Assembly (NCBI GenBank): GCA_021823305.1 | Contig: JAKAOE010000010.1 | Coordinates: 1-12,411, forward strand | Length of the DNA: 12,411 nucleotides | Direction: 5' to 3' | DNA from: Acidobacteriota bacterium | GTDB lineage: Bacteria > Acidobacteriota > Terriglobia > Terriglobales > SCQP01 | In this document: positions 11-9,945 of the stretch, in pieces | How the letters are laid out: each line of letters opens with the position of its first letter | Position numbering within the stretch: the first letter of the stretch is position 1 | Translations under genes and position numbers: made by a program | Notes under the pieces: model-generated | Databases searched by the model: none | What the model was told of the DNA's origin: nothing | Seen by the model: the letters and a program-made list of their open reading frames with translations, nothing else

Positions 11-2203
11 ATGTCAGGAGCGGTAAAACGTGCGGTCAACCTGGCAGTCATCGCGTTGATTGGCTTGGGATGGTTAGGCGCGGCGGCGCAAAGCTCGAAC
101 ACGCCGCCGGTTTCCGACGCCGTGGTGGCGCGCCTCAGCCTGATCAGCGGCAACGTCTCCACCCAACGCGCCGACACCGCCGAGTGGCAGTCGGGCGCCA
201 TCAACACGCCGCTGGTCAGCGGCGATAAGGTCGCCGCCGGCCCCGGCTCGCGCGCCGAAGTGCAGATTGACTACGCCGATCTGCTCCGCCTCGGCGACAA
301 CGCCCAGGCCAACCTCGTCAGCCTGACCCGCAACCAAATCCAGATTCAACTCGCCTCCGGCCTGGCCGATTACGTGGTGCTGCGCAACCCGCGCGCCACC
401 AGCGAAATCGACACCCCCAACGTCGCCATTCGCCCGCGCGGACAGGGCGTCTTCCGCATCCTGGTCAACTCCGCCAGCGAGACCCAGGTGATCGTGCGCC
501 GCGGCGAGGCCGACATCTCCACCCCGCAGGGCAGCACCACGCTGCGCGCCGGCCAACTGATCACCGTCGAAGGCGTCAACTCGCCCGAATACAAAATCAG
601 CGACGCGCCCGGACGTGATTCCTGGGACCGCTGGAACAGCCGCCTCGACGCCAAGGTCGAGGACGCCGCCAACTTCCAGTACGTCAACCCCTACTACACC
701 GGCGCGCAGGACCTGAGCGCCTACGGCTACTGGACCTACGTGCCCGGCTACGGCGAAGTCTGGGCGCCCTACAACCAGAACGCCGGCTGGACCCCCTACA
801 GCCACGGCCGCTGGGACTGGGAGCCCTACTGGGGCTGGACTTGGCAGGACTATGAGCCCTGGGGTTGGGCGCCGTATCACTACGGCCGCTGGTTCCCCTA
901 TGGCTCGGTGTGGGTGTGGTGGCCCGGTCCGGTGACGCCCTACTACCGGCCGATTTGGGCGCCCGCCTACGTCTCCTTCTTCGGTTGGGGCGGCGGCTTC
1001 GGTGTGGGTGTCGGCTTCGGCTACGGCAGCATCGGCTGGCTGCCCATCGGACCCTGCGACCCGTTCCGTCCGTGGTGGGGCGGCTACGGCTTCCACGCCG
1101 TCAACATCTACAACATCCGCGACTACGGCCGCTACGGCCGCGTGGTCCCGCCGCTGGCGGTCGCCGGCCGCGGCCGCATCGCCTACTCCAATCTGGACGG
1201 GCTGGAGAGCAATGCCCGCCTGCGCCGCGCGGTGGTCCGCATTCCCGCCAACCAGTTCCAGCACGGCGTCATCGGCACGCGGGAACGCGTGACCGTGGCC
1301 AATATCCGCCAGGGCCAGGCGCTCGGCGGCCGCCTGCCCGTGGTGCCCGGCCGCGGCGCGCTCGGCGGCGGACGCCCCTTGGCCCGCTCCGTGGTGGCGC
1401 GGCCGGTCGCGACCCGCTTCTTCGGGCGGGCGCGTGGCGCCGCGACGCCCAGCTTCCAGCAGGAGCAGGCGCGCATCCAGACCCGCGTCCGCACCTTCTC
1501 CCCGGCCGCGGCCGGACGGGTGACGGCGCCGCGCGGCACCATGCGCCCGGCAGCCCCGGCTTCGCGCCCCGGCTTCCAGCGCTTCGGCGGCCCCGCCGCC
1601 AATGCCCGCATCCCGGGCCGCACCTTCGCCGCGCCCAACGCCGGCCGTACTTTCGCCGCGCCGCGTGGCACCCTGCGCCCGGCCCCGGCAACCCGTCCTG
1701 GCTTCCAGCGCTTCAACGGCGGCGGCCAGACCCCGGTCAACGGCCGCACCTTCGCCGCGCCGCGCGGCACTATGCGCCCGGCGGCCCCGGCCACCCGCCC
1801 CGGCTTCCAGCGCTTCCAGCCGCAGCAGCCGCAGCAGTATGGCGGCGCGCGCTCCTACGGCGGTGGACGCCCCTACGCCGGGGGCGGATCGCCTGCCTAC
1901 GGCGGCTATCGCAGCTATGGCGGTGGCGGCGGCCGCCCGCCGCTGCACATCGGCCAGACCATCGTCACCCCGCGCGCCAGCTCCGGCCCGCGCTACAGCG
2001 CCCCGCGCGGCAACGGCGGCTTCCGCAGCTACGGCGGCGGCCGGCCCAGCGGCGGACAGCCGCATTACAGCGCGCCCCCGCGCGGCTCCTTCGGCGGCGG
2101 CCACGTCAGCGCCCCGCACGGTGGCGGCGGCGGCGTTCCCCACGGCGGCGGTGGCCCCCGCGGCGGCGGGGGCCGCGGTGGCCGCGGCGGCCGCGGCCAC
2201 TGA
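11..2203 (+). CDS. Secreted FecR-domain protein with Trp/Tyr-rich (DUF6600-like) middle and Gly/Arg-rich tail
   Basis: This 730-aa protein is probably exported to the periplasm or outer surface. Residues 1-27 form a signal peptide (KR, then a Leu/Ile/Ala core ending in AAAQS). Residues about 38-200 match a FecR-type beta domain (start ARLSLISGNVS, with LVSGDKV and LRAGQLITVEG). Residues about 235-330 are extremely rich in Trp, Tyr and Pro (for example GYWTYVPGYGEVWAPY), as in the DUF6600 region that often follows FecR in acidobacterial proteins. Residues about 505-605 hold three imperfect copies of an APRGTMRPAAP...RPGFQRF unit. The last 120 residues are Gly/Ser/Tyr/Arg-rich and end in repeated RGG. 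No sigma-factor or TonB-receptor gene is adjacent, so a classical Fec signalling role is not supported; a structural or envelope-binding role is an inference. The start is fixed by the signal peptide and the upstream purine-rich site. Several long overlapping frames on both strands are composition shadows of this very GC-rich gene. Confidence 0.85.
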   Translation: MSGAVKRAVNLAVIALIGLGWLGAAAQSSNTPPVSDAVVARLSLISGNVSTQRADTAEWQSGAINTPLVSGDKVAAGPGSRAEVQIDYADLLRLGDNAQANLVSLTRNQIQIQLASGLADYVVLRNPRATSEIDTPNVAIRPRGQGVFRILVNSASETQVIVRRGEADISTPQGSTTLRAGQLITVEGVNSPEYKISDAPGRDSWDRWNSRLDAKVEDAANFQYVNPYYTGAQDLSAYGYWTYVPGYGEVWAPYNQNAGWTPYSHGRWDWEPYWGWTWQDYEPWGWAPYHYGRWFPYGSVWVWWPGPVTPYYRPIWAPAYVSFFGWGGGFGVGVGFGYGSIGWLPIGPCDPFRPWWGGYGFHAVNIYNIRDYGRYGRVVPPLAVAGRGRIAYSNLDGLESNARLRRAVVRIPANQFQHGVIGTRERVTVANIRQGQALGGRLPVVPGRGALGGGRPLARSVVARPVATRFFGRARGAATPSFQQEQARIQTRVRTFSPAAAGRVTAPRGTMRPAAPASRPGFQRFGGPAANARIPGRTFAAPNAGRTFAAPRGTLRPAPATRPGFQRFNGGGQTPVNGRTFAAPRGTMRPAAPATRPGFQRFQPQQPQQYGGARSYGGGRPYAGGGSPAYGGYRSYGGGGGRPPLHIGQTIVTPRASSGPRYSAPRGNGGFRSYGGGRPSGGQPHYSAPPRGSFGGGHVSAPHGGGGGVPHGGGGPRGGGGRGGRGGRGH
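1526..1816 (+). repeat. Three imperfect 57-60-bp coding repeats
   Basis: The units are at 1526-1585, 1658-1714 and 1757-1816. Each encodes A-P-R-G-T-(M/L)-R-P ... R-P-G-F-Q-R-F; the middle copy is one codon shorter. Shorter GRTFAAP-encoding copies lie between them (about 1616-1635, 1643-1662, 1742-1761). The spacing is uneven, which suggests old duplication with drift in a low-complexity, probably disordered region of the FecR-domain protein. Confidence 0.8.
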
Positions 2204-2971: not shown

Positions 2972-2977
2972 GTGCAT

Positions 2978-3700
2978 GTGCCTTTAACGACCGAGGAATT
3001 TCGGGCAAAGGCGGTCGAATTGGTGCGCGATCACTACTCGCGCAGCCGCTCGCCTCTCCTCCTGGCAGCGTTGGGCCTTGAACTAAACCGTAAGGACGCG
3101 TGGCCGACGGACAGGCGCGGGCGCAGCCTCAAGCAGCTTATTGCTGACCTCATCTCACCAGAGCTCCAAACGGCGTCCGATCCAGGCTCCCCGGCATACG
3201 TTGCCGTGTTCCGACCAGAGGACCGGGAGGTCGTCGACCGCGCGATTTCCCTCCGCCGCGCGACCCCGTCTGCCGGCCCCGCCCTCGGCGACCTCGCCAG
3301 GCCCGTTCTCCTAGCGTTCTGCGTCCACGCCCAAGCAGGAGCCCCAGTTTATCTGCGCCGACGGGCTCCGTTTCGCTACTGGATCGGCACGCTCCCCCCC
3401 GATATGCAACCGGACTATGTCCCGGTGGAACCCGAGTATAGGCGGCCCGGTCTGAAGGTGGGTTCACCCGGAGCGCTGCCCCCAGCCGACCGCATGGACC
3501 TCGTCGAAAAAATCGCGAACTGGGCGACGGTCCATGGCATAGACCTGCAGGAGCTTGCCAGCTTCAAACCACAGCCGAGCAGCGCGTACTCGGAGAGCGG
3601 GTCCGCCCTTGAACGGCTTCTCGCAGCCCAGCCCGCAGACCTTGGACGCGCCATCGTCATACCGGCGGACATCGCGCTAGCGTTGTCAAGAATGCGGTAA
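2978..3700 (+). CDS. Hypothetical protein, possible N-terminal LOTUS/OST-HTH-like winged helix
   Basis: The protein is 240 aa from GTG 2978 (242 aa from GTG 2972). I do not recognise its full-length family. The first 75 residues (SPLLLAALGLELNRKD...GRSLKQLIADL...LQTASDP...AYVAVFRP) have the pattern of a LOTUS/OST-HTH-like winged helix: a hydrophobic helix, an LG-x(2)-L turn, a K/R-x-L helix and a closing strand pair. That is a recognition by eye with low certainty; such domains bind RNA or act as protein adaptors. A middle segment (about 105-150: PVLLAFCVHAQAGAPVYLRR...FRYWIG...YVPVEPEYRRPG) looks like a second, beta-rich domain. The end (LGRAIVIPADIALALSRMR) reads like a natural C-terminus. 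There is no signal peptide or membrane segment, so it should be cytoplasmic. Codons ending in A or T are common, unlike the flanking genes, which suggests acquisition. The next frame follows after 6 bp. Start 2978 is preferred because it coincides with the predicted transcription start. Confidence 0.65.
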   Translation: MPLTTEEFRAKAVELVRDHYSRSRSPLLLAALGLELNRKDAWPTDRRGRSLKQLIADLISPELQTASDPGSPAYVAVFRPEDREVVDRAISLRRATPSAGPALGDLARPVLLAFCVHAQAGAPVYLRRRAPFRYWIGTLPPDMQPDYVPVEPEYRRPGLKVGSPGALPPADRMDLVEKIANWATVHGIDLQELASFKPQPSSAYSESGSALERLLAAQPADLGRAIVIPADIALALSRMR

Positions 3701-3706
3701 CAGAGA

Positions 3707-4567
3707 TTGGCGGGCAAGGGCATCCGAGATCCGCAGGCACCGACACCTCGCCCCCTTGCGCTCGTCGCCGGGCTACCGAACCCGAACCACATGCAGGCGG
3801 AGGCATGTGCCAAACGCGTCGTCGGCGCGTTGACCAAAGTCATCGCGATAGCGTCAAGAGCTCGTAGCCAGTCTCTCTACCCGACGGACACAGTTCAGCG
3901 GCTGATGGACGCCGCGGCCGGGCATGTCAGCAGTCGGTCGGTCTCGCCGGCAGAATTGGTGCTCTTTTACGTGCGAGCGGTCGACGATGAGTCCCTTCTG
4001 AGGGCGTTCGATTTTTGCGCGATGCCGGCCCCCCTCGATTTGCCCCTCCCGGATCGCCTCTCCCCGAACCTTTACGAACAAGCGATGAAAGCCGCCTACC
4101 AAAAAATCTCATCGCGTCTACACAGCGATGTGAAGAATAGGGTAGCCGGTGGCAGGTCCGCTGAGCCCCTCCTTTTGCCGCCGAGAAATTTTGTCACGAA
4201 TGCGGGGCGCATGGCGGATGAATTCGTCAAAATCAGGAGGGGGCTTCCGGATTGGCACACATGCGGCCTCCAAAGCCCGGCGAGGGTTCCTGGCGCTTCC
4301 AGGTGTTTCACCGACTCACGCGGGCTGCTGTTCAAGGCCGCAGCCCCTGGCGCGATGCATGGCCAAGCGCGGCAGGTGCCGCCTCAGCAGCTGCTCCGGG
4401 GCAGGTTCCGGTTTGGCGCGCCGCTCCGCACGGGATTCCACCACGACGTCTCCCGTTCCGACGCGGGACGGCTGGATAACGTAGAATTCGAATGCTGCGA
4501 GAAGGGCCCGATCCGGGCAAGCGGCACGCACGCTAACATTTACCCAAACGACTACGTGCGCTGGTGA
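3707..4567 (+). CDS. Hypothetical protein, second gene of the cassette
   Basis: This frame encodes up to 286 aa and I do not recognise its family. It opens with TTG at 3707, 6 bp after the preceding TAA and in the same frame; the first in-frame ATG is at 3791 (258 aa). Neither has a convincing ribosome site, so the start is unsure. The N-terminal half (about residues 30-190) reads as a well-folded helical protein (for example AKRVVGALTKVIAIASRA, PAELVLFYVRAVDDESLLRAFDF). The end (RFRFGAPLRTGFHHDVS...NVEFECCEKG...HANIYPNDYVRW) has a conserved-looking look, with His pair HH and a Cys pair CC. The stretch at about 4255-4400 is less convincing and another frame there also reads plausibly, so a frameshift pair or local decay is possible. 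There is no signal peptide. Codon use is mixed, like the gene before it. It is probably translated in an operon with 2978-3700, or is the severed second half of one longer gene. Confidence 0.5.
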   Translation: MAGKGIRDPQAPTPRPLALVAGLPNPNHMQAEACAKRVVGALTKVIAIASRARSQSLYPTDTVQRLMDAAAGHVSSRSVSPAELVLFYVRAVDDESLLRAFDFCAMPAPLDLPLPDRLSPNLYEQAMKAAYQKISSRLHSDVKNRVAGGRSAEPLLLPPRNFVTNAGRMADEFVKIRRGLPDWHTCGLQSPARVPGASRCFTDSRGLLFKAAAPGAMHGQARQVPPQQLLRGRFRFGAPLRTGFHHDVSRSDAGRLDNVEFECCEKGPIRASGTHANIYPNDYVRW

Positions 4568-4789: not shown

Positions 4790-4912
4790 TCGGTGCACCG
4801 GGCCAGCGTCCACGCGGATACCACTAAGCTCGCTATCGCTCAAGGCAATTGTGGCACCGACATTACCTGCCAGTCAAGCTGCCCCGCCCACCGCGGCTTC
4901 GCTTTTTCTTTG

Positions 4913-7900: not shown

Positions 7901-8986
7901 CCCGCGGACGCCGTCGCCACCGCGCTGCTCGCCCTCGAAGGCCAGGGCCGCGTGCTGCGCGGCGCCACCTTCGGCTGGTGCGAGCGCGGCCTGCTCGCCC
8001 GCATCCAGCGCCGCATGGTGCGCCGCCTGCGCGCCGAGATCGAGCCCGTCGCCCCGGCGGTCTACGCCCGCTTCCTGCGCCGCTGGCAGCACCTCGAGCC
8101 CGGCGCCCGCCTGCACGGCCAGCGCGGTCTGGCGGCGGTGCTCGAGCAGTTGCAGGGCTTCGAAGCCGCCGCCAGCGCCTGGGAGCGCGAGCTGCTCCCG
8201 GCGCGCGTCGCCGACTACGCCCCCGCCCTGCTGGATGAGCTCTGCCTCAGCGGCGAGTTCGCCTGGGCGCGCATCTCGCCGCGCAAAAGCCGCGTCAGCG
8301 CCAACGGCGGCCCCGCCCGCGTCGCGCCCAACCGCAACTCACCCATCACCTTCTTCCGCCGCGGCGACGCCGCTTGGCTGCTGCGCGCTTCCGGCTGGCA
8401 GCCGGCGGCTGAACGCAACGGCAATTCGCGCCTCAGCCCGGCGGCGGCCCAGGTGCTGGCTCGTCTCGAGCGCCGCGGCGCCAGCTTCTTCGCCGCCCTC
8501 GCCGGCGACGGCCTGGTCGCCAGCCAAGTCGAGGACGCCCTCTGGGAACTGGTCGCCGCCGGCCTCGCCACCGCCGACGGCTTCGACAACCTGCGCGCCT
8601 TTCTCGATCCCAAGCGCCGCGCCGGCCAGGGCCGCGCCGCCGCCGCCCGCCCCCGCCACTCCCCCGGCCGCTGGACCCTGGTGCAGGAGGCCCTCCCCGA
8701 CGCCGCCGCCCCGCCCGCCTCGCAGGGCGACCTCGAGCTCGCGCGCCACGCGCTCGCCGAGCAGCAGGCGCGCCAGTGGCTGCGCCGCTACGGCGTCATC
8801 TTCAAAGCCGGTCTCGAGGACGAGAGCAGCGCCGTGGGCTGGTACGAAGTCCTGCTCGCCTGCCGCCGCCTCGAGGCCCGCGGCGAGATCCGCGGCGGCC
8901 GCTTCGTCAGCGGCTACGCCGGCGAGCAGTACGCCCTGCCGCAGGCGGTCGAAGCCCTGCGCATCGTCCGCCGCGTCGCTTATTGA
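4928..8986 (+). CDS. lhr: Lhr-type superfamily 2 ATP-dependent helicase
   Basis: This 1352-aa protein is a large helicase-related (Lhr) enzyme, a 3'-to-5' translocase that unwinds DNA or RNA:DNA duplexes and is linked to DNA repair. Visible motifs in order: a Q-motif-like GWPLI (about 27-31), Walker A APTGSGKT (41-48), TTPESL (about 133-138), Walker B DEIH (158-161), SAT (192-194), the second RecA domain from LVFVGTRRMAERV, ASLELGLDIG, and motif VI QRVGRAGH (345-352). The Lhr-core winged helix and DEAD-associated region follow (about 400-870, including ESNAGDIILLGTHSWKVRGIE and GCQDNHGGEDLEIPNHPYVQ). About 480 residues of Lhr C-terminal domain end in GGRFVSGYAGEQYALPQAVEAL, typical of the family. 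It is shorter than E. coli Lhr (about 1538 aa) but shows no internal break. The start at ATG 4928 follows an extended -10 box at leaderless spacing. The metallophosphoesterase and ligase partners seen with Lhr-core operons are absent. The last two codons (Ala-Tyr) and stop lie inside a 124-bp palindrome. GC at third positions is near total. Confidence 0.95.
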   Translation: MAAGLGATVGSWFAARFGEPSEPQAQGWPLIAADNDVLIAAPTGSGKTLAAFLIAIDRLARQAEAGRLDDAVQVVYVSPLKALANDIHKNLERPLAELGFTGRIRAAVRTGDTLAGERQAMLRRPPHILVTTPESLYILLTSAGGRKLLRPARTVIVDEIHALVANKRGAHLALSLERLDHLSGGPQRIGLSATARPLEEVARFLAGGRPLPQIVAVRDQRHWDLAVEVPAQELGPIATNEEWEERYQRLAELAREHRSTLVFVGTRRMAERVAHRMRERLGEDAVAAHHGSLSRAIRLRAEERFQRGELQMMVATASLELGLDIGSVGLVCQLGSPRQFAAAWQRVGRAGHWKGAIPKGRFFALTRDDLIECAALVRALRGGAPAADLEALQVPAWPRDILAQQIAAAVASSDTPEGWGEDELFALARRAWPYRDLPRPEFNALLELLSEGISTRRGRRGALLHRDGVHHRLRPRRGARMAAILNGGAIAETASYVVQAEPENLAIGSVDEDFATESNAGDIILLGTHSWKVRGIETGRVRVEDAHGAPPTVPFWLGEAPGRTPELSASVAELRDWIGALPPAAWPELAAACGLNESGARQAIAYLHAAQAALGAMPTARRLVAERFFDDGGGMQLVIHAPFGAAINKAWGMALRKRFCRGFDFELQASAGDNGLALALSEQHSFPLETIFAFLRAATVRPILEQAVLQAPIFGTRWRWTAGRALALQRFSGGRKLAPQIQRMRAEDLLAAAFPMQVGCQDNHGGEDLEIPNHPYVQETMRDCLHDFLDLDGLEAVLRGIESGAIALHAVDTPAPSALAHEILNVAPYGFLDDAPLEERRARAVDLRAAAGAAAPAPGALDPAAVEAVRAEAWPQPESPEELHDLLLSLFWLPEEEVAAGWRAWLDALRAAGRVLPHNRGWIAAERAAALTGAGKKPASGAGLAGAVWPGVEFAGATPTADEAALARMLGGWMEILGPVTEADLARRLHLPADAVATALLALEGQGRVLRGATFGWCERGLLARIQRRMVRRLRAEIEPVAPAVYARFLRRWQHLEPGARLHGQRGLAAVLEQLQGFEAAASAWERELLPARVADYAPALLDELCLSGEFAWARISPRKSRVSANGGPARVAPNRNSPITFFRRGDAAWLLRASGWQPAAERNGNSRLSPAAAQVLARLERRGASFFAALAGDGLVASQVEDALWELVAAGLATADGFDNLRAFLDPKRRAGQGRAAAARPRHSPGRWTLVQEALPDAAAPPASQGDLELARHALAEQQARQWLRRYGVIFKAGLEDESSAVGWYEVLLACRRLEARGEIRGGRFVSGYAGEQYALPQAVEALRIVRRVAY

Positions 8987-9100
8987 GTCTTGCGTATTAC
9001 GGTGTCAATCGCCACAGGCTGGAATCGGGCCCGGCATCAAGCCGGGCCCGACGCGCTCGCTGCGGCAGTTGACGCTATATTACGCAAGACTCAATAAGCG
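8977..9100. repeat. 124-bp near-palindrome joining the ends of lhr and the convergent gene; probable bidirectional terminator
   Basis: Perfect 20-bp inverted arms lie at 8977-8996 and 9081-9100 and include TTATTGAGTCTTGCG. Further in, the two halves still pair imperfectly (for example GTCAA 9004-9008 with TTGAC 9069-9073, and 9011-9017 with 9060-9066, one mismatch). At the centre a perfect 11-bp stem, TCGGGCCCGGC and its complement (9025-9035, 9041-9051), closes an ATCAA loop. Transcripts from either side would fold into one long hairpin. Each arm contains the final Ala-Tyr-stop of its gene. The arms are AT-rich against their surroundings. A mobile palindromic unit (MITE- or REP-like) is the alternative to a terminator that evolved in place; no target duplication is obvious. 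Confidence 0.85.
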
Positions 9101-9945
9101 CGCGGCGCCAGCAGCGCGTTCAGGTCGGCGTAGGCGATCGCGCCCGCCAGCAGCTCGAAGCCGCCCCCGCCGCGCAGCGCCTCGGCGATGCGCCGGAACC
9201 CGGCCAGCGCGGCGCGGTACGGGCCCGAACCCAGGCTGATGCGACGCACCCCCACGCGCGCCAGCTCGCCCACCGGCGGCAGCCCCGGCCCGCCCAGAAT
9301 GTTCAGCGGCCCGGGCGAGGCCTCCAGCAGCCGCGCGATCAGCCCCAGCTCGCGCACCCCGGGCGTGAAGATGCAGGCCGCGCCGGCGGTGCGGTAGGCG
9401 CGCGCCCGCCGCGCCCCTTCGGCGAACGCATCCAACGCCTGCGGCCCTTTGAGGAAGAACGCGTCGGTGCGGGCGTTGATCACCAGCGCCACGCCGGCTT
9501 CCTCGCCCGCCGCGTGCAGCGCCGCCAGCTTCTCCACCTGCAACTCGATCGGCACCAGCCGGCGCTCGCCTTCGCTGTCTTCGAGGTTGCACCCCACCGC
9601 CCCCGCGGCGAGCAGATCGCGTCCGGTCTGGAGCACCTCCTCGGGCGAGGCGCCGTAGCCCGCCTCGATATCGGCGCTCACCGGAATGCGCACCGCCTCG
9701 GCGATGCTCTCCACCACGTTCAGCATCTCGCGCTTCGAGATCCGCTCCCCGTCGGGATAGCCCAGCGCATTCGCGATCGCCGCGCTCGAGGTGGCGACCG
9801 CCGGAAAGCCGATCTCCTCCAGCAGCCGCGCGCCCGCGACGTCCCAGACGTTGGGCAGCAGCAGCGGCTCGGGGCCTTGGTGAAGGCTCTGGAGCCGGCA
9901 GGCTAGCTCGGACTGGCTGGACATGACGGATGCAACCTTGCTCAT
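9091..9945 (-). CDS. Isocitrate lyase/PEP mutase superfamily protein
   Basis: This protein of up to 284 aa is a TIM-barrel enzyme of the isocitrate lyase/phosphoenolpyruvate mutase superfamily, which makes or breaks C-C or C-P bonds of alpha-oxo acids using Mg2+. Visible motifs: LLPNVWDVAGARLLE (29-43), GFPAVATSSAAIANALGYPDG (46-66), the metal-binding strand SADIEAGYGASPEE (90-103), GCNLEDSEG (118-126) and INARTDAFF (156-164). The KKCGH catalytic cysteine motif of true isocitrate lyases is absent, so it is not one; the substrate cannot be told (PEP mutase, oxaloacetate hydrolase or 2-methylisocitrate lyase-like are options). ATG 9945 and ATG 9924 (277 aa) are both possible; the latter is preceded by AAGG and matches where the family usually begins. 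A TACACT -10-like hexamer at 9952-9947 (minus strand) would start transcription near 9940, which favours 9924. It is divergent from the cytochrome gene across a CRP-like site and convergent with lhr. Cytoplasmic; no nearby pathway partner. Confidence 0.88.
   Translation of the reverse strand: MSKVASVMSSQSELACRLQSLHQGPEPLLLPNVWDVAGARLLEEIGFPAVATSSAAIANALGYPDGERISKREMLNVVESIAEAVRIPVSADIEAGYGASPEEVLQTGRDLLAAGAVGCNLEDSEGERRLVPIELQVEKLAALHAAGEEAGVALVINARTDAFFLKGPQALDAFAEGARRARAYRTAGAACIFTPGVRELGLIARLLEASPGPLNILGGPGLPPVGELARVGVRRISLGSGPYRAALAGFRRIAEALRGGGGFELLAGAIAYADLNALLAPRAY

Follow-up and report, generated by a model that had tools for sequence, protein, structure and literature searches.

Palindromes that are read in frame within a gene are known from the palindromic elements of Rickettsia, and IS630 reportedly takes CTAG as its target (Tenzen and Ohtsubo 1991, cited in PMC2170065). 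Short mobile palindromes have been described from other bacteria as well. In the parts of the descriptions consulted, RUP of Streptococcus pneumoniae is 107 bp long, has terminal inverted repeats like those of an IS630-family element and inserts at TA, with IS630-Spn1 as the proposed mobiliser (PMC2229807), and it is over-represented between convergent genes (PMC3049150). The ERIC-related element MITEPlu5 of Photorhabdus is described, in the sections of the source consulted, as 123 bp long, with very strong secondary structure, a terminal TA duplication and IS630-like ends (PMC6267812). BOX, also from S. pneumoniae, supplies the 3' stop codon in 36 cases, with no strong evidence of truncation in the passages concerned (PMC3049150).

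The window analysed here, a stretch of 12,411 nucleotides of acidobacterial DNA, carries a palindrome between two convergent genes. We conclude, with a probability of about 95%, that it is a MITE of the IS630/Tc1-mariner kind inserted in the TA common to two overlapping stop codons. It is a known kind of element in an unusual landing site. RUP resembles it in size, in IS630-like terminal inverted repeats and in insertion at TA; the host differs, and the comparison is one of published descriptions. RUP has stops in all six frames according to the description consulted, whereas frame +2 is open in 9 of the 10 copies found here, and the portions of its descriptions covered mention no landing in overlapping stops. 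MITEPlu5 is recorded in its source, as far as consulted, with 552 complete copies and CCC-type ends, as against ten copies here. BOX likewise supplies stop codons; it is modular, however, and insertion at a TA within a stop does not figure in the part of its description consulted.

The convergent genes are lhr and a PEP-mutase/isocitrate-lyase-like gene (Table 1), whose Pfam family is related to isocitrate lyase. Upstream of lhr, the reading frames at 2972-3700 and 3707-4567 gave no Pfam match. The first-pass annotation held that both genes end in Ala-Tyr-stop, which is true of the sequence: the 3' ends read GTC GCT TAT TGA in lhr and CGC GCT TAT TGA in its neighbour. Sequence and fold also confirmed the 124-bp palindrome it had described at 8977-9100, with imperfect inner arms and a perfect 11-bp core. 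The outermost 20 bp form a perfect inverted repeat (8977-8996/9081-9100, arm CGCTTATTGAGTCTTGCGTA), the ungapped arms 8977-9017/9060-9100 are 83% complementary, and the perfect core stem (9025-9035/9041-9051) encloses a loop of 5 nt, ATCAA. Folded as RNA, 8970-9107 reached -102 kcal/mol versus a shuffle mean of -50.55 (sd 3.68; z -14; 0 of 200 shuffles equal), and 8981-9096 alone gave z -11.5. A very stable hairpin is formed on either strand of the palindrome. No Rfam family matched the window at the gathering score.

The boundaries of the element were set by an alignment of ten copies as TA-TTGAGTC...GACTCAA-TA. In the window copy the terminal inverted repeats amount to 16 consecutive pairs at the tips, and the outer CGCT/AGCG of the 20-bp arms are host DNA outside the element; the palindrome runs these 4 bases further on each side because the target happened to be palindromic. 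The view that the arms contain the last codons and stops of both genes therefore stands for the perfect 20 bp as such, whereas CGCT/AGCG, and hence the shared Ala codon, belongs to the host. The length of the element leaves no room for a transposase gene.

Table 1. Features of the window, landing sites of the ten copies and related palindromes in the own genome (G000) and in G004. Positions without a locus handle are those of the window.
Feature	Location	Strand	Basis or context
lhr, large helicase-related protein, 1352 aa	4928..8986	+	Pfam DEAD, Helicase_C, DEAD_assoc, WH_Lhr, WH3_Lhr, WH4_Lhr
PEP-mutase/isocitrate-lyase-like gene, 284 aa	9091..9945	-	Pfam PEP_mutase PF13714, E 4e-80
IS630-type MITE (very probable)	8981..9096	.	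116 bp including both TAs, net insertion 114 bp = 38 codons; ten-copy alignment and empty site in G002
Duplicated target TA, left copy (inside YTAR)	8981..8982	.	
Duplicated target TA, right copy	9095..9096	.	
Left terminal inverted repeat and inner arm, TTGAGTCTTGCGTATTACGGTGTCA	8983..9007	+	Largely invariant in ten copies; resembles IS630-type ends in related genomes
Right terminal inverted repeat and inner arm, TTGAGTCTTGCGTAATATAGCGTCA on minus strand	9070..9094	-	Ten-copy alignment; resembles IS630-type ends in related genomes
Central hairpin, core A: 11-bp perfect stem TCGGGCCCGGC, loop ATCAA	9025..9051	.	Same core also in a palindrome with other arms
lhr TGA stop, from element tip (TAT TGA)	8984..8986	+	TAG here in lhr of G002
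TGA stop of PEP-mutase/isocitrate-lyase-like gene, from other tip	9091..9093	-	TAA here in the G002 gene
Window copy			Stops of both convergent genes
Copy C11			Stop of PIN-domain gene (PF01850) behind Phd/YefM antitoxin gene
Copy C35			Stop of redoxin-domain gene
Copies C110 and C105			Gene stops, by orthologue
Copy C104			Stop of 94-codon frame, no Pfam match; reading frame only
Copy C365			5 bp after stop of AIM24-family gene
Copy C23			Between divergent genes
Copy C167a			In front of PIN gene
Copy C167b			About 200 bp downstream of recA
Palindromes with ends TAGAGCAGTTTTAGC (G004)	L191 5871-5986; L200 17668-17784; L210 11241-11357; L204/L205 border		Core equal or like TGCGGCTTTTC/GAAAAGCCGCA of subfamily B
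118-bp palindrome GAACCTGTCTCATAAT (G000, C333)	L190 2920-3037		Core equal or like TGCGGCTTTTC/GAAAAGCCGCA of subfamily B
Second GAACCTGTCTCATAAT-type palindrome (G000, C167)	L002 about 1665-1780		Left tip unlike; core about 90 bp from copy C167a

In the mechanism that we propose, an IS630-type transposase acting in trans would join the element to a TA within Y-TA-R, duplicating the TA. The target at this locus would have been the TA common to the overlapping stops of the convergent genes, with a presumed ancestor that read GCT-TAA on each strand. Each split stop would then become TAT TGA, and each protein would keep its end and gain one Tyr, because the tip after TA reads TTGA. Wherever the TA of a TAA or TAG stop is struck, the reading goes on as TAT TGA, from either side and on either strand. 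YTAR includes TAR on each strand, so that an insertion there can spare both members of a convergent pair whose stops overlap. The MITE probably moved in trans, presumably through a transposase of this type. The element would be, or would once have been, mobile in this organism.

Judged by Lhr, the nearest relative is G002 (90% identical), in which these two genes also converge but no element is present. Its lhr closes with GTG GCT TAG and the second gene, on the other strand, with CCC TAA, one TA being common to both stops. When the window flanks were joined over a single TA, the resulting ...GTC GCT TAA GCG CGC... aligned with G002 across the junction and gave a stop on both strands. Of the four copies compared, G002 has empty sites for three; those of C110 and C105 each correspond to a split TAA stop. 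At C110 the protein ends ...MHQR TAA in G002 versus ...MHQR-Tyr TGA in G000, and at C105 a small conserved protein ends ...DADR TAA versus ...DAGR-Tyr TGA, respectively. For C35, the comparison found distant homologues only. Instead of a single copy conserved at this junction in all relatives, as a plain terminator would have it, we thus found a junction that is empty in G002.

The orthologues also bear on whether the gene ends were trimmed or extended at the arm, as the first-pass annotation had wondered: trimming did not occur, while each protein is longer by one Tyr and its stop has been swapped. Over 8900-8986, Lhr of the window lacks, as does that of G002, a C-terminal tail, DPL or DPV, that is present in 10 of 10 relatives with a readable lhr end (the minus-strand ends of G007 and G013 were left out of this comparison) and is followed by ..GI in 8 of those ten. 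Trimming of lhr by the element was rejected, given that G002, without the element, has an equally short lhr end; the short C-terminus therefore predates the insertion.

In the own genome (G000; 2.46 Mb, 471 contigs, 73% complete) the element is present ten times, spread over nine contigs; C11 is 111 bp long, with 5 bp missing, and the other nine copies measure 116 bp. The search for dispersed copies that had been suggested thus proved productive, and together with the TA duplication, the empty site in G002 and the IS630-type ends it upholds the idea that a mobile palindromic unit entered the gene junction and brought the stops with it. The palindrome search itself returned seven long copies and fragments of others; C365, C105 and C110 were added by end pattern and a second search, and all are full copies. 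All ten copies have Y just 5' of the left target dinucleotide and R just 3' of its right counterpart. TA stands at both ends in 9 of 10, one end of C365 now being CA. In a sample of 40 contigs (189 kb) of G000, YTAR accounts for 163 of 2295 TA sites. As is reported of IS630, the MITE uses a TA inside a 4-bp palindromic target, here YTAR and not CTAG alone.

A covariance model built from the ten copies, which recovers those ten by construction, was run with 150 candidates scored per genome. Beyond the ten it gave weak matches only (E 3e-7 to 1e-3), namely C55, C38 and C333 in G000 and one place each in G002 and G004, and no match in 11 other genomes of the family. The full palindrome was not found in the other relatives, 59 of which were searched; the only matches were to the core hairpin, in G002. 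Neither the plasmid and viral collections nor the genome contig collection, the latter searched with the exact own-end pattern, gave a match. Palindromes of about 90-140 bp were also sought by a gap-free scan that covered the window, 189 kb and 11 further loci of G000, and 812 kb of G004. Four rows came out (window, C167a, L127 and L194); the scan overlooked 8 of the ten known copies and is therefore no evidence of absence.

The end motif TATTGAGNNTCGCATAWTATANTG, with at most two mismatches, occurred in 24 of 397 genomes of the order, the own genome included, and a reversed-pattern control gave zero. Four loci in related genomes (L094, L110, L111 and L113) have two such ends each, at a distance of 1093-1142 bp, and the reading frames enclosed by them match DDE_3 (PF13358) and IS-type HTH models; these ends are similar, not identical, to those of the MITE. 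Since its ends are thus common to IS630-type (DDE_3) elements of about 1.1 kb, the element was classed as an IS630-type MITE. Other short elements with these ends measure 104, 190, 195 and 278 bp. Related genomes supplied 41 further distinct ends of the kind, counted as ends and not as insertions, and Y precedes TA in 40 of them. Seven named stretches carry such ends, six under acidobacterial names (two from one assembly) and one labelled Deltaproteobacteria; three of the seven are the same junctions as in relatives G005 and G007. The own-end pattern with 2 mismatches was present in 6 of 298 genomes, the own one among them, versus 3 for the reversed control (G010, G031 and G177), so that single weak own-end matches mean little. 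Some transposase-bearing relatives have deviating tips, TATTGCG or TATTTAG (L072).

The own genome yielded no transposase flanked by TATTGAGTCTTGCG ends; as its assembly is 73% complete, a partner may lie in the missing part, and the definition of a MITE does not require one in the same genome. The only DDE_3 match in G000 is C410, which has other ends, CTAGTGTCCTGAGTCAGA, and C410 was rejected as the own-genome partner on account of this difference. The C410 element itself (L073 1360-2521) is IS630-type, with a 385-aa open frame carrying DDE_3 and 18-bp perfect ends, and its tip after TA would likewise give TAG. In G007, an end copy beside DDE_3 fragments (L066 1501, TATTGAGTGTCGC) closes the ispG/GcpE reading frame by TAT TGA.

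Six of the ten copies lie in a gene's stop. For the window copy, C11, C35, C110 and C105 this is backed by Pfam or by an orthologue, and for C104 by the reading frame alone. Stops make up 16-19% of YTAR sites according to one simple gene caller. When this caller was applied to sites and copies alike, 5 of 10 copies scored (P 0.013-0.027 versus all YTAR; P 0.045-0.12 versus YTAR outside coding sequence); C11 and C110 escaped it, and its tally includes a doubtful frame at C365. The hand-curated 6 of 10 corresponds to P 0.002 and 0.01, which is not a like-for-like test. We regard the copies as modestly enriched at gene ends, which is no proof that stops are targeted.

At copy C105 (L032 2998-3113, compared with L175 in G002), a single landing closes one gene and would extend its neighbour. 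In G002 the next gene starts within the last codons of the small gene (ATG CGG ACC GCT AAC...). The element, at GCT A, ends the upstream gene with Tyr-TGA, and the next gene is predicted to carry 38 extra in-frame codons near its start, in a protein otherwise much like that of G002; it stays in frame because the net insertion is 114 bp. As an in-frame palindrome in a gene, C105 resembles the Rickettsia palindromic elements.

A stronger form of the MITE reading would have the tips selected to rebuild stops, so that harmless insertion at YTAR is a landing strategy and not luck. Frame 0 meets a stop at codon 1 or 2 from both ends in 10 of 10 copies, and the share of copies in gene stops, set beside that of YTAR sites, speaks for this idea. 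So does an element type of G004 with tips TAG/TAA, of which 2 of the 4 copies in 812 kb end genes, one for a glycosyltransferase and one for a DUF892 protein. On the other hand, the same-caller count of 5 of 10 includes the doubtful C365 and yields P up to 0.12 against non-coding YTAR, and simple arithmetic predicts an immediate stop (TAA/TAG) for roughly one in two random tips placed after TA. In a stop-frame screen by longest open frame alone, which is noisy in GC-rich DNA, 12 of 63 ends passed; for related genomes the figure was 5 of 43, some of these spurious by appearance (L065 and L103). The tip letters TGA are conserved no better than several inner positions, and an excess at gene ends would result even if selection did no more than remove insertions that harm genes. 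Selected tips therefore seem rather unlikely to us, whereas near-neutral landing in stop codons may well have helped copies to survive.

The further alternatives fare worse. An ordinary bidirectional transcription terminator would suit a position between convergent genes and a very stable hairpin on both strands; however, 8700-9400 contains 0 sites with a stem and T-run, the structure is absent at the same G002 junction, where the stops overlap, and the ten copies are dispersed, with one that separates divergent genes and another that precedes a gene. A plain terminator is accordingly highly improbable and was rejected. We give equally little credit to the idea that a single-strand (HUH/Y1) transposase spread a hairpin of the REP/REPIN kind, which would accord with a short palindrome and with a central hairpin common to elements with different arms; the TA duplication, the YTAR target and the IS630-like ends speak against it, although the core hairpin alone may have a REP/REPIN-type origin. 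That one gene's 3' end was copied inverted onto the other, as an Ala-Tyr-stop encoded in both genes by the same DNA might suggest and as the first-pass annotation had entertained, is next to impossible in view of 116-bp copies at nine other places and unlike homologous ends in G002, and the empty site there excludes it.

Within the IS630-type MITE, the centre seems to vary separately from the ends. Seven of the ten copies (type I) contain core A (TCGGGCCCGGC-ATCAA) and the other three core B (TGCGGCTTTTC-CYCAA), with outer arms that are nearly the same throughout, and simple copying does not account for the differing cores of these subfamilies. RNAalifold on the ten copies showed 12 of 37 pairs changed on both sides, mostly through one A-to-B replacement and not through independent events. 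A 113-bp palindrome with CTGAGTTGCGCGC arms, present in G000 (C55 and C38) and in G002, has core A as well. This palindrome sits in a longer repeat with conserved flanks at L020 368-480 (C55), L021 (C38) and, in G002, L010, L012, L013, L015 and L017, the copies at L013, L015 and L017 being partial. The CTGAGTTGCGCGC arms have TGAG..TTGCG in common with type I, a likeness that 36-60 of 500 shuffles match about equally well (IA ends); this second kind of arm may be related to that of type I.

Core B recurs in a palindrome of 116-117 bp in G004, TA(G/A)AGC(A/G)GTTTTAGC, with four copies in 812 kb, three of them with core changes, and like cores lie within the GAACCTGTCTCATAAT-type palindromes of G000 (Table 1). 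Another strong palindrome of G004 (L205 about 4790-4910) has ends like GAAACCAGAC and a core-B-like hairpin (L205 4836). None of 12 perfect inverted repeats with arms of at least 10 in the 189-kb sample equals core A or B. A core-A-like stem in G004 (L218 17049) lacks arms of this kind, and TTTTCTT comes after it as in an ordinary terminator, so that GGGCCCGG stems may be commonplace.

We put forward tentatively, as a possibility rather than an expectation, that palindromes of nearly constant total length (113-118 bp) with several kinds of ends, probably in Acidobacteria, have at their centre either of two interchangeable hairpins with an 11-bp stem and a loop of 5 nt, often NNCAA, and that those with TA-type ends land in YTAR with tips that rebuild a stop. 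This reading is weakened because the arm kinds around core A may be kin and the core-A-like stem of G004 is terminator-like. Cores may have come to be shared through recombination between MITEs, or because MITEs arise where a hairpin folds back and is copied.

Among the matches listed from titles and abstract openings in the PubMed Central open subset, which leaves most subscription papers, ISfinder and preprints outside, no report was found of IS630-type MITEs in overlapping stops, and within the same limits none of hairpin cores common to MITEs with different ends. The locus offers a base-level view of a transposable element that enters two overlapping stops while both reading frames stay intact, and this bears on the survival of MITEs in compact genomes. 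If the wider reading is true, landing in stop codons would be a way of harmless insertion, even at overlapping genes, and the hairpin would be a module of its own, either the fold-back point of MITE birth or a functional RNA/DNA hairpin captured by different transposons. Should the pattern of same core and different ends hold, the origin of MITEs would become testable, as cores and ends seem to be inherited separately.
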